Assembly (NCBI GenBank): GCA_021199375.1 | Contig: JAJQIB010000039.1 | Span: 32,086-96,085, forward strand | DNA length: 64,000 nt | Origin: Ruminococcus sp. | GTDB taxonomy: Bacteria; Bacillota; Clostridia; Oscillospirales; Ruminococcaceae | Direction of reading: 5' to 3' | Part shown: in pieces, positions 26,900-33,509 of the stretch | Numbering within the stretch: the first letter of the stretch is position 1 | Layout: the number at the start of each line of letters is the position of its first letter | Notes under the pieces: model-generated | Database searches by the model: none | Seen by the model: the letters and a program-made list of their open reading frames with translations, nothing else | What the model was told of the DNA's origin: nothing | Position numbers and translations under genes: made by a program

Positions 26900-27634
26900 T
26901 CAGACATTTGTGCCTCGCTTTTTATTTAGCTTTTCAAAAACCTCGTCAGAACCCTCATGTATGTTTAAATTCGCCACATGATCAAATCCGGTATGTCCGG
27001 GATTTATTTGAACAATTATGGCATCTTTTCTTCTATAATCCCAGTAGACTCCGCCATAGTTTCCTTGCGTTCCAATAACAAGAATCAGATCTGCCTTCGA
27101 AATCCAGTCCCTGGCTTTTCTCACATCTGCATCCCACAGACCGATATGACTATACAGCGGCCACGGAAGAATCTCACCTCCGCAGGATTCGCAAATCGGC
27201 AATTCCTTTTGCTTCCAGATTTCATACCCGTCATAATGTTGACCACATTTACTGCAGCAATTTACTTGAAGACTTCCTTGTATTTCAGCTACATTTTTAG
27301 TTACGGCTATGGTGTGCATACAGTCAACATTGGTCGTAATAACTCCTATAAGCTTTTCTTCCTTTTCTAACTCAGTTAAAGCATAATGAGCATAGCTTGG
27401 CACATAAGAAAACATATTATCAAGATATGTTGGAAGAAAAGAGCTGTAGCTGTCCCCTGCTCTAGGTGTAACTCCAGCACGACGGTTAGAAATAGCCATC
27501 TGTAAGTAAGTCATACCTCCGCTTGAAACGGAAATACCCGCACCTGTAATTGCAACGATGCTTTTACTTAGATCAATAAAATCGGAAAGCTGCTGTATCT
27601 TATCTGTACATTTATTTGTTCCAGGAAATTTCAT
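26900..27634 (-). CDS. Divergent SIR2-family protein, copy 2
   Basis: NAD-dependent Sir2 fold of about 244 residues. GAGIS (nucleotide loop), TTNVDCMH and the four zinc Cys (CSKC, CESC) are visible, as is QINPG near the end. The catalytic His of the usual HGS motif is Gln (EIQGS), and the GIPDFR motif is absent. Classical lysine deacylation therefore looks unlikely. Sirtuins of class M also carry Gln there (from memory), so ADP-ribosyl transfer is possible. The start at 27634 follows TTAGGAGAG, 13 bp after the paralogue's stop. Confidence 0.75.
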   Translation of the reverse strand: MKFPGTNKCTDKIQQLSDFIDLSKSIVAITGAGISVSSGGMTYLQMAISNRRAGVTPRAGDSYSSFLPTYLDNMFSYVPSYAHYALTELEKEEKLIGVITTNVDCMHTIAVTKNVAEIQGSLQVNCCSKCGQHYDGYEIWKQKELPICESCGGEILPWPLYSHIGLWDADVRKARDWISKADLILVIGTQGNYGGVYWDYRRKDAIIVQINPGHTGFDHVANLNIHEGSDEVFEKLNKKRGTNV

Positions 27635-27647
27635 AAATTTCACTCTC

Positions 27648-28373
27648 CTAACCATTTATCACAGCATCAAGAGCCTCAGATGCATTTGCGCGTATATTTA
27701 AATCTGCAAGCCCATCAAATTGAGTTTCTGATGGGTTTATTTGTATGAGCCTTGCTTCATCTTTAAAGCGACTTAGATATTCATTACTGCGAAATCCCGT
27801 TGTGCCTATTATAATAACGAGATCCGCTATAGATATCAGATCAATGGCTTGCTTCATGTTTTTATGTGAAATTTCCTCACTTAATTTAGATTCTTTGAAA
27901 AAGGTTGTTGGCATCAACGGAGCTTCGCATTTTTCACATAGAGGCATATGTCCTTGATCCCATACTTTATAATCAAAGGTACGATTTTCACAGCCTGTGC
28001 AGACATTGTCTTGAAAGCTTCCTTGAAATTCTATCACGTTTTTTGAACCGGCAATAGTATGCAAGCAGTCGAGATTTTGAGTAACAATACCACGTATTTT
28101 ATCGTTGCGTTCTAACTCAGCCAACTGCTTATGCACTTCGCTTGGTCCCTTAATAAATGTTGCATCCAAGAAGGAATATCTCATGATTTCATAGAATTTT
28201 TCAGGATTTTTGCGAACATACGAAGCAGAAAATATTCGTCCTGCATTTATTCTACCTTGTGTTTGTTTTAATCTTCTCATTCCATAAAGATATGAAATGC
28301 CCGCACCAGTTACTGCAACTGTACTTTTACTCTGTTCAATGTATTCTTTTAATATAATGTATTCGTTTTTCAT
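27648..28373 (-). CDS. Divergent SIR2-family protein, copy 1
   Basis: First of two tandem paralogues, 241 residues. GAGIS, TQNLDCLHTIAG, the zinc ligands (CTGC, CEKC) and QINPS are present. EFQGS again replaces the catalytic His by Gln, and the SGIPDFR motif is missing. AGGAGGACATTTAAC sits before the ATG at 28373, so the track start is rejected. A promoter and a long leader hairpin lie upstream, so both genes probably form one two-gene unit downstream of two nitroreductases. Confidence 0.75.
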   Translation of the reverse strand: MKNEYIILKEYIEQSKSTVAVTGAGISYLYGMRRLKQTQGRINAGRIFSASYVRKNPEKFYEIMRYSFLDATFIKGPSEVHKQLAELERNDKIRGIVTQNLDCLHTIAGSKNVIEFQGSFQDNVCTGCENRTFDYKVWDQGHMPLCEKCEAPLMPTTFFKESKLSEEISHKNMKQAIDLISIADLVIIIGTTGFRSNEYLSRFKDEARLIQINPSETQFDGLADLNIRANASEALDAVING

Positions 28374-28499: not shown

Positions 28500-29168
28500 T
28501 CATATCCATGTAAAATTTTCCTTGCCAGCACCAAGCTCGAAATGATATTTTCCAATTCCGAGATCTGCACCTGAGTATGAACCATTGTTACATGTTATCT
28601 TTACTTTATTGCTCTTGCCTTTAATGGTAAACGCTTGCTTATTCATTGCTGTCGGTGCCAATAAACATGCTGAAACTCCTGCTTTAAACCATTCTGGAGC
28701 CTCACCTTCGTAAGATGATATTTCTGAAGCCGACTTGGATTTATGTGGGATACCTTGATTTTCTCCATATCCAATGGCAACTATACCTATAATCTTAGCA
28801 TTATCTCCAGCATTAGAGTTCTTTTTTACTCCCTTTCGACTAAACATTCCGCCAATCCACCAGGTATTTAGTCCAAGTGTTTGTGCATAAAGCATAAGAT
28901 CTGCACTGCTGTATCCCAGCATTTCATCTACTTTAGGTTTATCGGGACCTGCAAGAATGATATAGTTTTGAACACCTTTTGACATCATCTTTGCAATAAT
29001 TGCAGGCATTCCCTCTTTGTTTTGCGTAACAAGCTGAATATTTAGTCCGTGCTCATGATTTTGAAATTCAATCCGCTCATTTAACTGAGATACAATATCT
29101 GTGGGTATAGGTTTATCCTTGTATTTATTCACCTTGTGTCGCGCACTCATTGCTTCTTGTAGTGTCAT
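28500..29168 (-). CDS. Nitroreductase-family protein
   Basis: About 222 residues, flavin (FMN) dependent oxidoreductase fold. N-terminal TLQEAMSARHKVNKYKDKPI is typical, and GINTWWIGGMF-like GLNTWWIGGMF forms the conserved middle motif. The track start is 29198; GGGAGGGTCATTT before the ATG at 29168 fits better. It lies 37 bp after the other nitroreductase, so one transcript is likely. Substrate unknown. Confidence 0.82.
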   Translation of the reverse strand: MTLQEAMSARHKVNKYKDKPIPTDIVSQLNERIEFQNHEHGLNIQLVTQNKEGMPAIIAKMMSKGVQNYIILAGPDKPKVDEMLGYSSADLMLYAQTLGLNTWWIGGMFSRKGVKKNSNAGDNAKIIGIVAIGYGENQGIPHKSKSASEISSYEGEAPEWFKAGVSACLLAPTAMNKQAFTIKGKSNKVKITCNNGSYSGADLGIGKYHFELGAGKENFTWI

Positions 29169-29205: not shown

Positions 29206-29736
29206 TCAGATATAATTTACGCTAAGTGAAACTGACAGCTCTCTCGGTTGTGCTTCACCACTCTTGCTATAGCCAATTGCAGCAGCGGAAACGGGTCTAA
29301 AGCCTTCTGGAATACCCATTTTTGCACATAGCTCTTCATTTTTAGCCAGAGCCTGTACACCGCCCCAAAGATAGATGTTATCTACTCCTGCATCGGTTGC
29401 GGCAATTAACATGTTTTCAATCACGCAAGCTGCGTTTGCGTACTCAATTCCCGGCGCCATTTGCTCATTCGAAGCCGAAACAAAGATAACGACCGGCGCG
29501 CTATAAAAGAAATCTCTCTCGTCCATTTTCATAACCGCAGCAGTAGTACGATTGATTTCATCGAGAATCTTACGATTAGAGCATACTGTCAAATGAAGCG
29601 ACTCACGCTTATTTGCGCCAATTGGAGCCTGGCAGCCCGCCTTGACGATTGTATCCACGATTTCTTTGGACACTTCCCGATCCGGATCAAAATCTCTCGT
29701 TGACTTTCTTTTTGCGATTGCTTCTGATGTTTGCAT
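29206..29736 (-). CDS. Nitroreductase-family protein
   Basis: 176-residue FMN oxidoreductase. AIAKRKSTRDFDPDREVS is the classic N-terminus with the FMN-phosphate Arg. The middle ANAACVIENMLIAATDAGVDNIYLWG and the C-terminal AAIGY match the family. It is the first gene of the nitroreductase pair, with TTAAGGAGG as ribosome site. May reduce nitro compounds or flavins; no specific substrate can be given. Confidence 0.88.
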   Translation of the reverse strand: MQTSEAIAKRKSTRDFDPDREVSKEIVDTIVKAGCQAPIGANKRESLHLTVCSNRKILDEINRTTAAVMKMDERDFFYSAPVVIFVSASNEQMAPGIEYANAACVIENMLIAATDAGVDNIYLWGGVQALAKNEELCAKMGIPEGFRPVSAAAIGYSKSGEAQPRELSVSLSVNYI

Positions 29737-29823: not shown

Positions 29824-31008
29824 TCACAATGGCAAATCTTTCTTTTGGAATCTTAATGCTCCAATAATGTAGCAAGCAATTGCTATAACTGCAAGCACTA
29901 TTAGCTTAGGAACAAAAGCATAATCAACATCTCCAGAGCCAATAGTTCCCAATGCATTAATGTCAAAAAGACCAACTAAAGAAACGTTATTAAATAGTCC
30001 CAATTCCTCAACGCCCATGCCAACATTCACCATGTCATCTGAGCCAAACATGCCTAACAGTGAGCAAAGGAAAAACCATACGTTTAGACCTCCACCTAGT
30101 GCGAGAGCATATTTGCTAAGGTTGAAAATACAGCTTGCAAGATAACATATGCTAGCCATACCTTCTGCTAGAAGATAGAGACCTCCATAAAGTGCTGCAT
30201 ATTTTGCAACCTCAACCTCACCTATAAATGCATTACATGCAATTAGCTTAACAACAAATGCACATCCAATCATAATAAGCGGAGTAACTATCATGTAAAT
30301 TGCTTGAGTTATTACTACAGCACTTCTTTTTGTTGGCGTTGAGAGTATATATGCCATAGAACCCTTATCAACCTGATCTACAATAAGTGCATTGCCAGCA
30401 AATATGATAAACAGCAATATTGGCAGTAAGCTCATAATTGTAAAATACATTCTACTAAGCATGGCTGATGTATCCATTTCGCTCATATTCTCAACTAAAT
30501 CAGAAGAAACGCCCATCATTTCAAGCATATTACTCATCATAGTTTCAACATCTAAATCATCACCTGAAAAACATCCTTGAACACTTCCAAGAGCGTATAC
30601 ATATTCAAAATTATCTATGTAAGAGTCAATACCTACCTCTGATTGAGAAAGAGTATCTGCTACTTCTGAGAAGCCTTCAGATGTTAAATCAAGTTCATCT
30701 GATTGCTCTGACAGCATTGTAAAAACTGTATCATACTCGGTTTTGTCCTCAGTGCTTGCAAAGTCCTCATAGCTAAGCTCGGTTCCTGACATTTCGTTAT
30801 AGGATGCTATTGCGTATAAGTAACTATAGAAATCAGCCTGAACATCAGTATAATCATTAGAATCAGATGTAGAGCCTATCATATTTCCAGCGTATGTGGT
30901 TACAACCGTCATCAAGCAAAGCACTACTGTGCAAGCTATGCAAAGTACTCTATTTGAAATAATACTTTGCTTCATTAGTGAACCTGAAAAATATCTTGTG
31001 ATCTTCAT
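29824..31008 (-). CDS. ABC-2 type transporter permease
   Basis: 394 residues with about six membrane helices: one at residues 15-37, then a long extracytoplasmic loop rich in Asp/Ser/Glu (about 40-185), then five helices. This matches drug- or lipid-type ABC-2 permeases. It starts 20 bp after an ATPase gene and shares its transcript. Only one permease is paired with two ATPases, one of which is frameshifted. Confidence 0.82.
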   Translation of the reverse strand: MKITRYFSGSLMKQSIISNRVLCIACTVVLCLMTVVTTYAGNMIGSTSDSNDYTDVQADFYSYLYAIASYNEMSGTELSYEDFASTEDKTEYDTVFTMLSEQSDELDLTSEGFSEVADTLSQSEVGIDSYIDNFEYVYALGSVQGCFSGDDLDVETMMSNMLEMMGVSSDLVENMSEMDTSAMLSRMYFTIMSLLPILLFIIFAGNALIVDQVDKGSMAYILSTPTKRSAVVITQAIYMIVTPLIMIGCAFVVKLIACNAFIGEVEVAKYAALYGGLYLLAEGMASICYLASCIFNLSKYALALGGGLNVWFFLCSLLGMFGSDDMVNVGMGVEELGLFNNVSLVGLFDINALGTIGSGDVDYAFVPKLIVLAVIAIACYIIGALRFQKKDLPL

Positions 31009-31027
31009 ATTTAATTGTTCCTCCTTA

Positions 31028-31918
31028 TCAGCTTTCTTTTGTTATTATATCCATAAAATATTCTTCGAGATTAGGATGTGATTCTGAAAGAGATATTACA
31101 TTGAGACCTTTTAAAGCTTTAAAAGGCTCATCAACCTCACTTGCTATTGCATTGAATTCTACATTTTTTCCTTGTAATTTTGCTTTAAAAAATCGATTCT
31201 TGAAAGTCTTAGCTGATTCTTCAGTATCAAACTGAATAGAATAGTTTCTTACAGAGCTATGTCTAAAATCTGAGAGATCAAGAACACTTTTGATTTCTCC
31301 ATTATTTATTATTGCAACTCGATCGCAAACCTCTTCGATTTCCTCAAAAATATGACTGGACATAAAAATAGTTCTTCCCTTTGCTTTTTCTTCTCGCACA
31401 AGCTCAAGAAAGGTTTCACGCATAAGAGGATCTAGACCGGTTGTTGGCTCATCTAGGATTAGCACTTCCCTATCTCCCATTAAAGCTGCAACAATTGCCG
31501 TCTTTTGCTTCATTCCTTTACTCATTCGTTTTAAAACTGCAGATGGATCAAGTCCTAAAATATCTATAAGGTGATTCATATATGTAAAATCCTTTACGCC
31601 AAGGCACTCAGCTTGAACCTTAAAAAAATCAGTTCCTGTTTTTAGGTCAGGAAAGAAAATCTCGCCAGGAATATAGCTTACGTTTTTCATAACCTTTGGA
31701 GCATCTATCCAAGGATTAAGTCCGTTTACTTTTACTGAACCACTATCTGCTTTAATAAATCCCATCATATGACGAATAGTTGTGGTTTTGCCTGAACCAT
31801 TGGTGCCTAAATAACCAAAAACCTCACCTTTTTGTATATCTAAGGATATATCAAATACACCACGGCTATTACCATAGTCCTTAGTCAGATGTTCGACAGA
31901 TATAATAGTATTGTTCAT
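31028..31918 (-). CDS. ABC transporter ATP-binding protein
   Basis: 296 residues. Walker A is GTNGSGKTTTIRHM, the signature reads RMSKGMKQKT, and Walker B is VLILDEPTTGLDP, followed by SSHIFEEIEEVCDR (H-loop). A C-terminal extension (about 210-296) is typical of exporters of CcmA type. The gene lies immediately after the frameshifted paralogue (stop at 31921) and before the permease; the operon is opposite to a TetR gene. Confidence 0.93.
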   Translation of the reverse strand: MNNTIISVEHLTKDYGNSRGVFDISLDIQKGEVFGYLGTNGSGKTTTIRHMMGFIKADSGSVKVNGLNPWIDAPKVMKNVSYIPGEIFFPDLKTGTDFFKVQAECLGVKDFTYMNHLIDILGLDPSAVLKRMSKGMKQKTAIVAALMGDREVLILDEPTTGLDPLMRETFLELVREEKAKGRTIFMSSHIFEEIEEVCDRVAIINNGEIKSVLDLSDFRHSSVRNYSIQFDTEESAKTFKNRFFKAKLQGKNVEFNAIASEVDEPFKALKGLNVISLSESHPNLEEYFMDIITKES

Positions 31919-31920
31919 TT

Positions 31921-32831
31921 TTATTTTACCCCCTCGAAATGATGACCTGTATCATAAAATCCCATGAAATAGTCTTCAAGTGTAAAAGGAATCTCAACAA
32001 AATCTGATATTTGAAAGCCATCAAGACTAGATAATAATTCATTTACACGATTTGCAGGGATTTGAATCCTTGCACGTAGCTTCTGTTCGTTTTTGGATGT
32101 AAAGATAAAATCCTTTGATGTAAAAGCTTTATATTCATCTAGGCTTGTAAAGGTTATGCGATATATTCTGTCATGCTTTTGCTTTAAGTCATCTGATTTA
32201 AATTCAGAAACAATTTTACCATCACGGATAATCGCTATGCGGTCACAGGATGCATCAACCTCATGAAAAATGTGTGACGATAAAAATATGGTCTTGCCAC
32301 GCTTTTTTTCTTCCTTTACAAAATCTATAAATGTTTTCTGCATAACGGGATCTAGTCCTGAGGTAGGCTCATCTAAAATTAAAATGTCAGGGTCATGCAT
32401 AAAAGCTGTAACGACTGCAAGCTTACGCTTTACACCTAAGCTCATTTGTTTAATGCTTATGTTTGGGTCAAGCTCGAAACGATCTAGCAGCATGTTTAAA
32501 TAATCATTTTCAACCCTGCCACGCATACGCTCCATCATATGTAAAAAGGCTGTTCCTGAAAGTCCGGATGGCAATGTGACCTCGCCTGGCAAATAGCCTA
32601 CATTATTTTGAAGCTCTGAACTGTTTTCCCAGCTATTTTTATCAAGGATAGAGGTACTTCCCTTTTGCGGCTTAGAAAAGCCCATTAAATGTCTGATTGT
32701 AGTAGTTTTTCCTGCACCGTTAGGTCCTAAAAAGCCATAGCATTCGCCTTGGTTTATTTTTATATTTACATCAAAACCCCACGTCCATGTCCATAGTCTT
32801 TTGTTAAATGTTCTATATCTATTATCGCCAT
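31921..32831 (-). pseudogene. ABC transporter ATP-binding protein, frameshifted near its N-terminus
   Basis: Translation from the ATG at 32831 (GGAGG upstream) reads MAIIDIEHLTKDYGHGRGVL then stops. In the other frame, DVNIKINQGECYGFLGPNG with Walker A GPNGAGKTT continues into the ORF at 32685. One missing base in the AAAACCCC run near 32773-32780 (GGGGTTTT on the coding strand) accounts for the break. Downstream, QMSLGVKRKL (signature), ILDEPTSGLDP (Walker B) and SSHIFHEVD are intact. Either a recent loss, a programmed shift, or a sequencing error. Confidence 0.85.
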
Positions 32832-32844
32832 TTAATCATCCTCC

Positions 32845-32873
32845 TTGACATTATGCAACAACTGTTGTATAAT
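32845..32873 (+). promoter_or_regulatory. Consensus sigmaA promoter of the TetR gene
   Basis: TTGACA (32845-32850), 17-bp spacer, TATAAT (32868-32873). Confidence 0.88.
32858..32868. promoter_or_regulatory. Candidate TetR operator ACAAC-T-GTTGT
   Basis: Short palindrome inside the spacer of the tetR promoter and next to the start of the opposite transcript. A related GTTGTACAA lies at about 32922-32932. Assignment to the TetR protein is inference. Confidence 0.45.
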
Positions 32874-32874
32874 T

Positions 32875-32903
32875 ATTATAGCATATCTATTAATCTTTAT
32901 CAA
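32875..32903 (-). promoter_or_regulatory. SigmaA promoter of the ABC transporter operon
   Basis: On the minus strand TTGATA (32903-32898), 17-bp spacer, TATAAT (32880-32875). Its -10 box is 1 bp from the divergent tetR -10 box. Confidence 0.82.
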
Positions 32904-32945
32904 CCAACAATTATTTTATATTTGTTGTACAAAAGGAGTTATAAC

Positions 32946-33509
32946 ATGAAAAAGAATCCAGAGATCACAAATGCAACCCGAAACAAACTAATTCAAGCTT
33001 TTTGCAAACTATATAAGGAAAAGCCAATTACCAAAATAACAATAAAGGAAATAACGGATATTGCAGGGTATAATCGTTCTACCTTTTATCAATATTTTGA
33101 AGACATATTTGCACTTCTAGAATATATAGAAGACGAAATGATAGAAACAGGACTCGAAAAGATAAATGAGATAGATCTTGATGCATTAAACTTTAACGAG
33201 CAATTTGTGTTTACTCTTTCTGAGTTTCTTGTAACGCACGATTATTATTCAGTAATTCTGTCAAAAACAGACATACATTCTGATTTTTTTAATAAGCTGA
33301 AATCAAAAGCTATGCCTAATATGATTGAACGATTTAAAATATCCAATGACAATAAGCTGGCAGTACTAGCAATTGAATTTTATCTGACAGGAATACTTAC
33401 TTTACTAAATAAATGGATTGAAAACTACAAAGAAATCCCGATAGAAGAATTGGGCACTCTTCTTCATGGGATATGGTATGATGGATTGTTAAAACAGCTC
33501 AAAGGTTGA
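32946..33509 (+). CDS. TetR-family transcriptional regulator
   Basis: 187 residues with an N-terminal helix-turn-helix (ITKITIKEITDIAGYNRSTFYQYF) and a helical ligand-binding C-terminal part. The track start (32808) adds a hydrophobic, unlikely leader; AAAAGGAG precedes the ATG at 32946. It is divergent from the ABC exporter genes, which it probably represses together with itself. Confidence 0.9.
   Translation: MKKNPEITNATRNKLIQAFCKLYKEKPITKITIKEITDIAGYNRSTFYQYFEDIFALLEYIEDEMIETGLEKINEIDLDALNFNEQFVFTLSEFLVTHDYYSVILSKTDIHSDFFNKLKSKAMPNMIERFKISNDNKLAVLAIEFYLTGILTLLNKWIENYKEIPIEELGTLLHGIWYDGLLKQLKG

Follow-up and report, generated by a model that had tools for sequence, protein, structure and literature searches.

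In this study, we analyzed a stretch of 64,000 nucleotides from Ruminococcus sp. (assembly GCA_021199375.1, contig JAJQIB010000039.1, positions 32,086 to 96,085, hereafter the window), which encodes on its minus strand two adjacent sirtuins, SirA (26900-27634, 244 aa) and SirB (27648-28373, 241 aa), both with a glutamine in place of the catalytic histidine. Based on their sequences and on the analogy with the class M sirtuins (SirTM) and their Zn-Macro partners, we consider it probable that SirB and SirA, together with a PARG macrodomain protein encoded beside them in related genomes, form a reversible, redox-linked ADP-ribosylation system, which would be analogous to SirTM/Zn-Macro but would differ from it in the sirtuin clade and the eraser employed.

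The original prediction had described tandem sirtuins with QGS at the active site, which have lost the GIPDFR motif and kept GAGIS and four zinc cysteines, and the Pfam SIR2 matches and the alignment recovered all of these features in both open reading frames (ORFs). SirA and SirB share 37% identity, and both match SIR2 (PF02146) above the Pfam cut-off (E=6e-18 and E=2e-24, respectively). The N-x-D-x-x-H segment is also kept in both, and the alignment with Sir2 and SirTM enzymes, a check proposed at the time, places glutamine in the catalytic-histidine column of both proteins, i.e., Q119 in SirA (codon at 27278-27280, minus strand) and Q117 in SirB (codon at 28023-28025, minus strand), each within QGS. 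The GIPDFR stretch is substituted by SSGGMTYLQ in SirA and by YLYGMRRLKQ in SirB; at this loop position an aromatic residue is retained in the SirA types, while SirB has Leu and Lys. The AlphaFold2 (AF2) model of SirA had a mean predicted local distance difference test score (pLDDT) of 79.5 and matched Sir2Tm/Sir2Af in Foldseek with a probability of 1.00, and that of SirB had a mean pLDDT of 89.1 and matched Sir2Tm with the same probability. The cofactor loop of SirB, with the motif GAGISYLYGMRRLKQ, took a helical form in the model, at moderate confidence (pLDDT ~72).

A contig scan of genomes retrieved 44 loci, most with 65-74% identity to SirB; most of these loci come from related metagenome-assembled genomes (MAGs), thus the counts do not represent independent events. 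The source MAGs are labelled as Lachnospiraceae, Clostridiales, Oscillospiraceae, Ruminococcus, and, in one case, Erysipelotrichaceae. Nearly all loci contain a tandem array, made up of SirB and, after it, one to three paralogues of the SirA type, and four subfamilies can be distinguished by their loop motifs in the Clostridia (SirB, SirA1, SirA2, and SirA3), with SirA of the window falling in A1 and its SirB in the B subfamily. QG occupies the site of the catalytic histidine in nearly all of the ~100 related sequences read out, and the corresponding alignment column contains Gln in 41/41 family members versus His in 25/25 canonical sirtuins of the Clostridia. The NAD-cleavage Asn, the Asp, the GAG-S loop, the zinc site, and the Gln are strictly conserved in the Gln family, and a Cys directly follows the N-x-D motif in 40/40 aligned array members. 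A tree without SirTM separated the Gln family from the His sirtuins of the Clostridia together with Sir2Tm, Af1, and Af2 by a branch with 100/100 support. The median pairwise ratio of nonsynonymous to synonymous substitutions (dN/dS), calculated from pairs whose dS lay in the range of 0.05 to 1, was 0.075 for SirB, 0.122 for A1, and 0.077 for A2. Judged from these sequences, SirA and SirB are members of a conserved family under purifying selection. Chance and decay to pseudogenes are ruled out, because the Gln is invariant in the aligned members and dN/dS is low, in agreement with the earlier argument that the loss shared by both copies reflects a common change. Cargo of phages or plasmids was also rejected, as no relative was found in viral contigs and plasmids gave one canonical-type match. 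Shortened extra sirtuin copies do occur in several arrays (L043, L062, L063, and L073).

In the relatives, the gene 3' of the array encodes a microbial-type PARG of ~340 aa (PF10021, E=1.7e-28 in L034), and at several loci its ORF overlaps that of the sirtuin ahead of it. It was present in 36 of the 41 loci with enough flank. Among the nine genomes examined individually (G000, G027, G144, G450, G474, G1051, G1150, G1245, and G1259), PARG was found in all nine and adjacent to a Gln sirtuin in eight; three of the loci behind this count (L177-L179) come from a later order-level scan and do not overlap with the first set at 99% identity. Of 199 family genomes, 4 encode a close PARG (E<=1e-80); Gln sirtuins occur in three of these 4 and in no other genome of the 199. 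The array PARG has both the PF10021 domain and the GG..QEE catalytic loop of microbial PARGs, matches solved bacterial PARGs (5zdb, 3sig), and the AQEE(D/S)LCR motif is intact in 31 array PARG ORFs. The general order of the arrays is NTR1-(NTR2)-SirB-SirA1-(SirA2)-PARG-(SirA3), where NTR1 and NTR2 are nitroreductases, and this run is often divergent from an Rrf2 regulator.

The statement of the original prediction that no macrodomain is encoded nearby is true within the window, but does not extend to the arrays of the relatives, nor to this genome, in which a homologous PARG lies on another contig. In the window, the gene 3' of SirA is on the plus strand and is not a PARG, and tblastn detected no PARG remnant. 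The only PF10021 PARG of the entire genome is located on contig C1 (G000:C1:5622-6572; L124 / L078; E=2.1e-32), adjoining a small CxxCxxCC-type ORF of the same type as found beside the Gln-sirtuin arrays. In G1259, a member of the same family, a single run consists of a divergent TetR gene followed by the CxxCxxCC-type ORF, NTR1, NTR2, SirB, SirA2, and PARG. Considering this arrangement, the window most likely contains the same operon, with PARG and its neighbor relocated but retained in the genome.

SirB and SirA are the last two genes of a minus-strand run of four (NTR1-NTR2-SirB-SirA, with gaps of 37, 126, and 13 nt). The two nitroreductases previously noted directly upstream were recognized by Pfam as NTR1 (29206-29736, minus strand, PF00881, E=1.9e-16), which is small and the first gene of the run, and the TM1586-type NTR2 (28500-29168, minus strand, PF14512, E=1.8e-62). 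NTR1 has 82% identity to the NTR1 ahead of SirB in relatives, and NTR2 has 74% identity to the NTR2 adjoining SirB in L057. SirA starts with an ATG at 27634 and SirB with an ATG at 28373, preceded by the ribosome-binding sites AGGAGAG and AGGAGG, respectively. The 126-nt gap between NTR2 and SirB was examined as an RNA element, with a fold z-score of -1.07 and no Rfam match. Upstream of NTR1, the window contains ABC transporter genes as well as a TetR regulator in divergent orientation (29824-33509), and TetR genes are also close to the array in G1259 and G450. A distant Gln sirtuin is close to a TM1586 nitroreductase in G511. At L123:7464-9267, where no PARG is nearby, a distant Gln sirtuin (GAGISTSAGIGDTDHW, NIDHLH, QGS) is accompanied by a MarR regulator in addition to a TM1586 nitroreductase. 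In other arrays, an unusual Lon-type AAA+ protease gene directly follows SirB or separates it from SirA (L042, L048, and L077), and genes for an AMP-binding ligase and a GNAT, joined in several cases by one for an esterase, follow 3' of the array in a constant order (L034, L036, L040, L044, L049, L058, L067, and L075).

The redox link that had been put forward from the neighboring oxidoreductases also held for the relatives, where nitroreductases and Rrf2 recur at the arrays. In addition, a flavodoxin is encoded near SirB in at least 7 arrays and the CxxCxxCC-type ORF alongside at least 14, the latter with a weak Pfam match in G474 (E=8e-4) and none in this genome. The company of nitroreductases, flavodoxin, Rrf2, and the CxxCxxCC-type protein suggests that redox or electrophile stress controls the system.

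Considering these findings, the most likely role of SirB and SirA is that of the 'writer' half in a system of reversible ADP-ribosylation. The sirtuins would cleave NAD, as the NAD-cleaving core (GAG-S loop, Asn, Asp, and zinc module) is kept, while Gln replaces the base needed for deacylation in every aligned member, and the ADP-ribose would go to an acceptor rather than to an acyl-lysine imidate. The PARG macrodomain with its QEE catalytic motif would then strip the ADP-ribose. By analogy with SirTM, we hypothesize that the Gln family transfers ADP-ribose, and the strongest argument for this is the ADP-ribose-removing enzyme that accompanies the sirtuins. No GCV_H match, i.e., no lipoyl carrier, was detected in this genome, hence the acceptor must be something else, and the redox proteins of the cluster, the nitroreductases included, would be the first candidates. 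Several observations weigh against this proposal. An upstream nitroreductase was found in only 23 of 35 testable loci and a divergent Rrf2 regulator in only 13 of 25, both counts being lower bounds from simple distance rules. NAD binding in SirB could be weak, because the Phe and Arg of the IPDFR loop are replaced (Leu and Lys in SirB). Arg192 of SirTM is not conserved and no Arg or Lys is invariant across the Gln family, so that the SirTM mechanism cannot simply be transferred. Furthermore, ADP-ribosylated RNA is among the other substrates on which PARG macrodomains can act (PMC11833690).

PARG would have another role if the sirtuins were still lysine deacylases, with Gln or another residue substituting for the His, and PARG cleared the O-acyl-ADP-ribose by-product. 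We regard this as unlikely: the fold of SirA and SirB is closest to the Sir2Tm/Sir2Af deacylases, GNAT and AMP-ligase genes lie 3' of some arrays, and O-acyl-ADP-ribose can be hydrolysed by macrodomain proteins, according to work cited by PMC12700824, but GIPDFR is missing as well and a canonical His sirtuin (L001), also present in this genome, can provide deacylation. A conflict module, toxin-antitoxin or anti-phage, in which the sirtuins would act by NAD depletion or by poisoning a target, with PARG as the immunity component, appears improbable. The sirtuin/Macro pair has been termed type-II toxin-antitoxin-like (PMC9503650), PARGs can guard against ADP-ribosylating toxins (PMC11833690), and the arrays show paralogue gain and broken copies. 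However, the PADLOC models gave no match for 8 array proteins, by which a known anti-phage or defence system was ruled out, relatives were absent from viral contigs and the only one on plasmids was of the canonical type, the arrays are linked to redox genes and Rrf2, and this genome tolerates sirtuins unlinked from PARG. Pseudoenzymes that sense ADP-ribose or NAD(H) and regulate the nitroreductases are quite improbable, since, despite the loss of the catalytic His and the loop Phe/Arg and the helical model of the SirB loop, Asn, Asp, GAG-S, the zinc site, and Gln are strictly retained, and SirTM with the same His-to-Gln exchange is an active enzyme.

Compared with the canonical SIR2 deacylases (Sir2Tm and Sir2Af1/Af2), the Gln family has the same fold, zinc module, and NAD-site Asn and Asp, but lacks both the catalytic His (HG) and GIPDFR, and forms its own clade. 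The SIR2_2/FAM118 proteins and the anti-phage SIR2 NADases are divergent sirtuins as well, and FAM118A and FAM118B work as a functional pair (PMC12700824); the FAM118 proteins, in contrast, retain the active-site His. The array PARG belongs to the microbial-type PARGs by profile and catalytic motif, and differs from them in being tied to dedicated sirtuins. As the physiological roles of bacterial PARGs have been described as unknown (PMC11833690), a PARG sharing an operon with candidate writers makes their cellular role directly testable, and our proposal, if true, would provide a bacterial PARG with a writer of endogenous origin. Our search found no literature combining sirtuin, macrodomain, and nitroreductase, subscription papers being outside its reach.

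The closest parallel is the SirTM/Zn-Macro system (Rack et al. 2015, PMC4518038; Ariza et al. 2024, PMC11490716). SirTM ADP-ribosylates a lipoylated carrier without deacylation, with Gln replacing His, and Gln137 contacts the nicotinamide ribose and Arg192 (PMC4518038); SirTMs are apparently the only sirtuins acting purely as ADP-ribosyltransferases, owing to this exchange (PMC11490716). Gln occupies the catalytic-His site in 41/41 Gln-family and 10/10 SirTM rows, and both systems have a macrodomain partner in the operon. SirTM operons also hold two flavin-type oxidoreductases nearby (PMC4518038), i.e., old yellow enzyme (OYE) and luciferase-like proteins where the Gln family has nitroreductases, and the oxidative-stress link of SirTM has its counterpart in the redox genes of the arrays. 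The original suggestion of a class M-like Gln thus stands as regards the residue, but membership in class M is ruled out by trees, profiles, the missing Arg192, and the lack of a linked MacroD-type Zn-Macro. By profile alignment, the Arg192 site is Leu in SirA and Phe in SirB, and the profile of the Gln family gave a much stronger match to canonical SIR2 (1.7e-53) than to SirTM (4.6e-11). In the tree, SirTM lies on one side of a branch of 5.8 changes/site (100/100), which is too long to tell a Gln of shared ancestry from convergence. The two kinds are different things, because both coexist in this genome: a true SirTM on contig C29 (L079 / L130; 291 aa, TQGDYGLWQC, E=8e-79 to 5a3a) has as neighbors the only Macro (PF01661) gene of the genome, a PNPOx/Fe-S protein, an NAD(P)-binding protein, and an Rrf2 regulator. 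Whereas SirTM is paired with a MacroD-type Zn-Macro and a lipoyl carrier, the Gln family has one to four paralogous sirtuins per array and a PF10021 PARG. We see an even chance that these arrays represent a hitherto unrecognized class of ADP-ribosylating sirtuins, separate from SirTM, in which a redox-regulated operon of Clostridia encodes both a multi-paralogue writer set and a PARG as its dedicated eraser; such a system may have several acceptors, one for each paralogue, or may modify RNA. Overall, whether the His-to-Gln exchange described for SirTM predicts the activity would be put to the test by a second clade of the Gln type, separate from SirTM and equipped with an eraser of its own.
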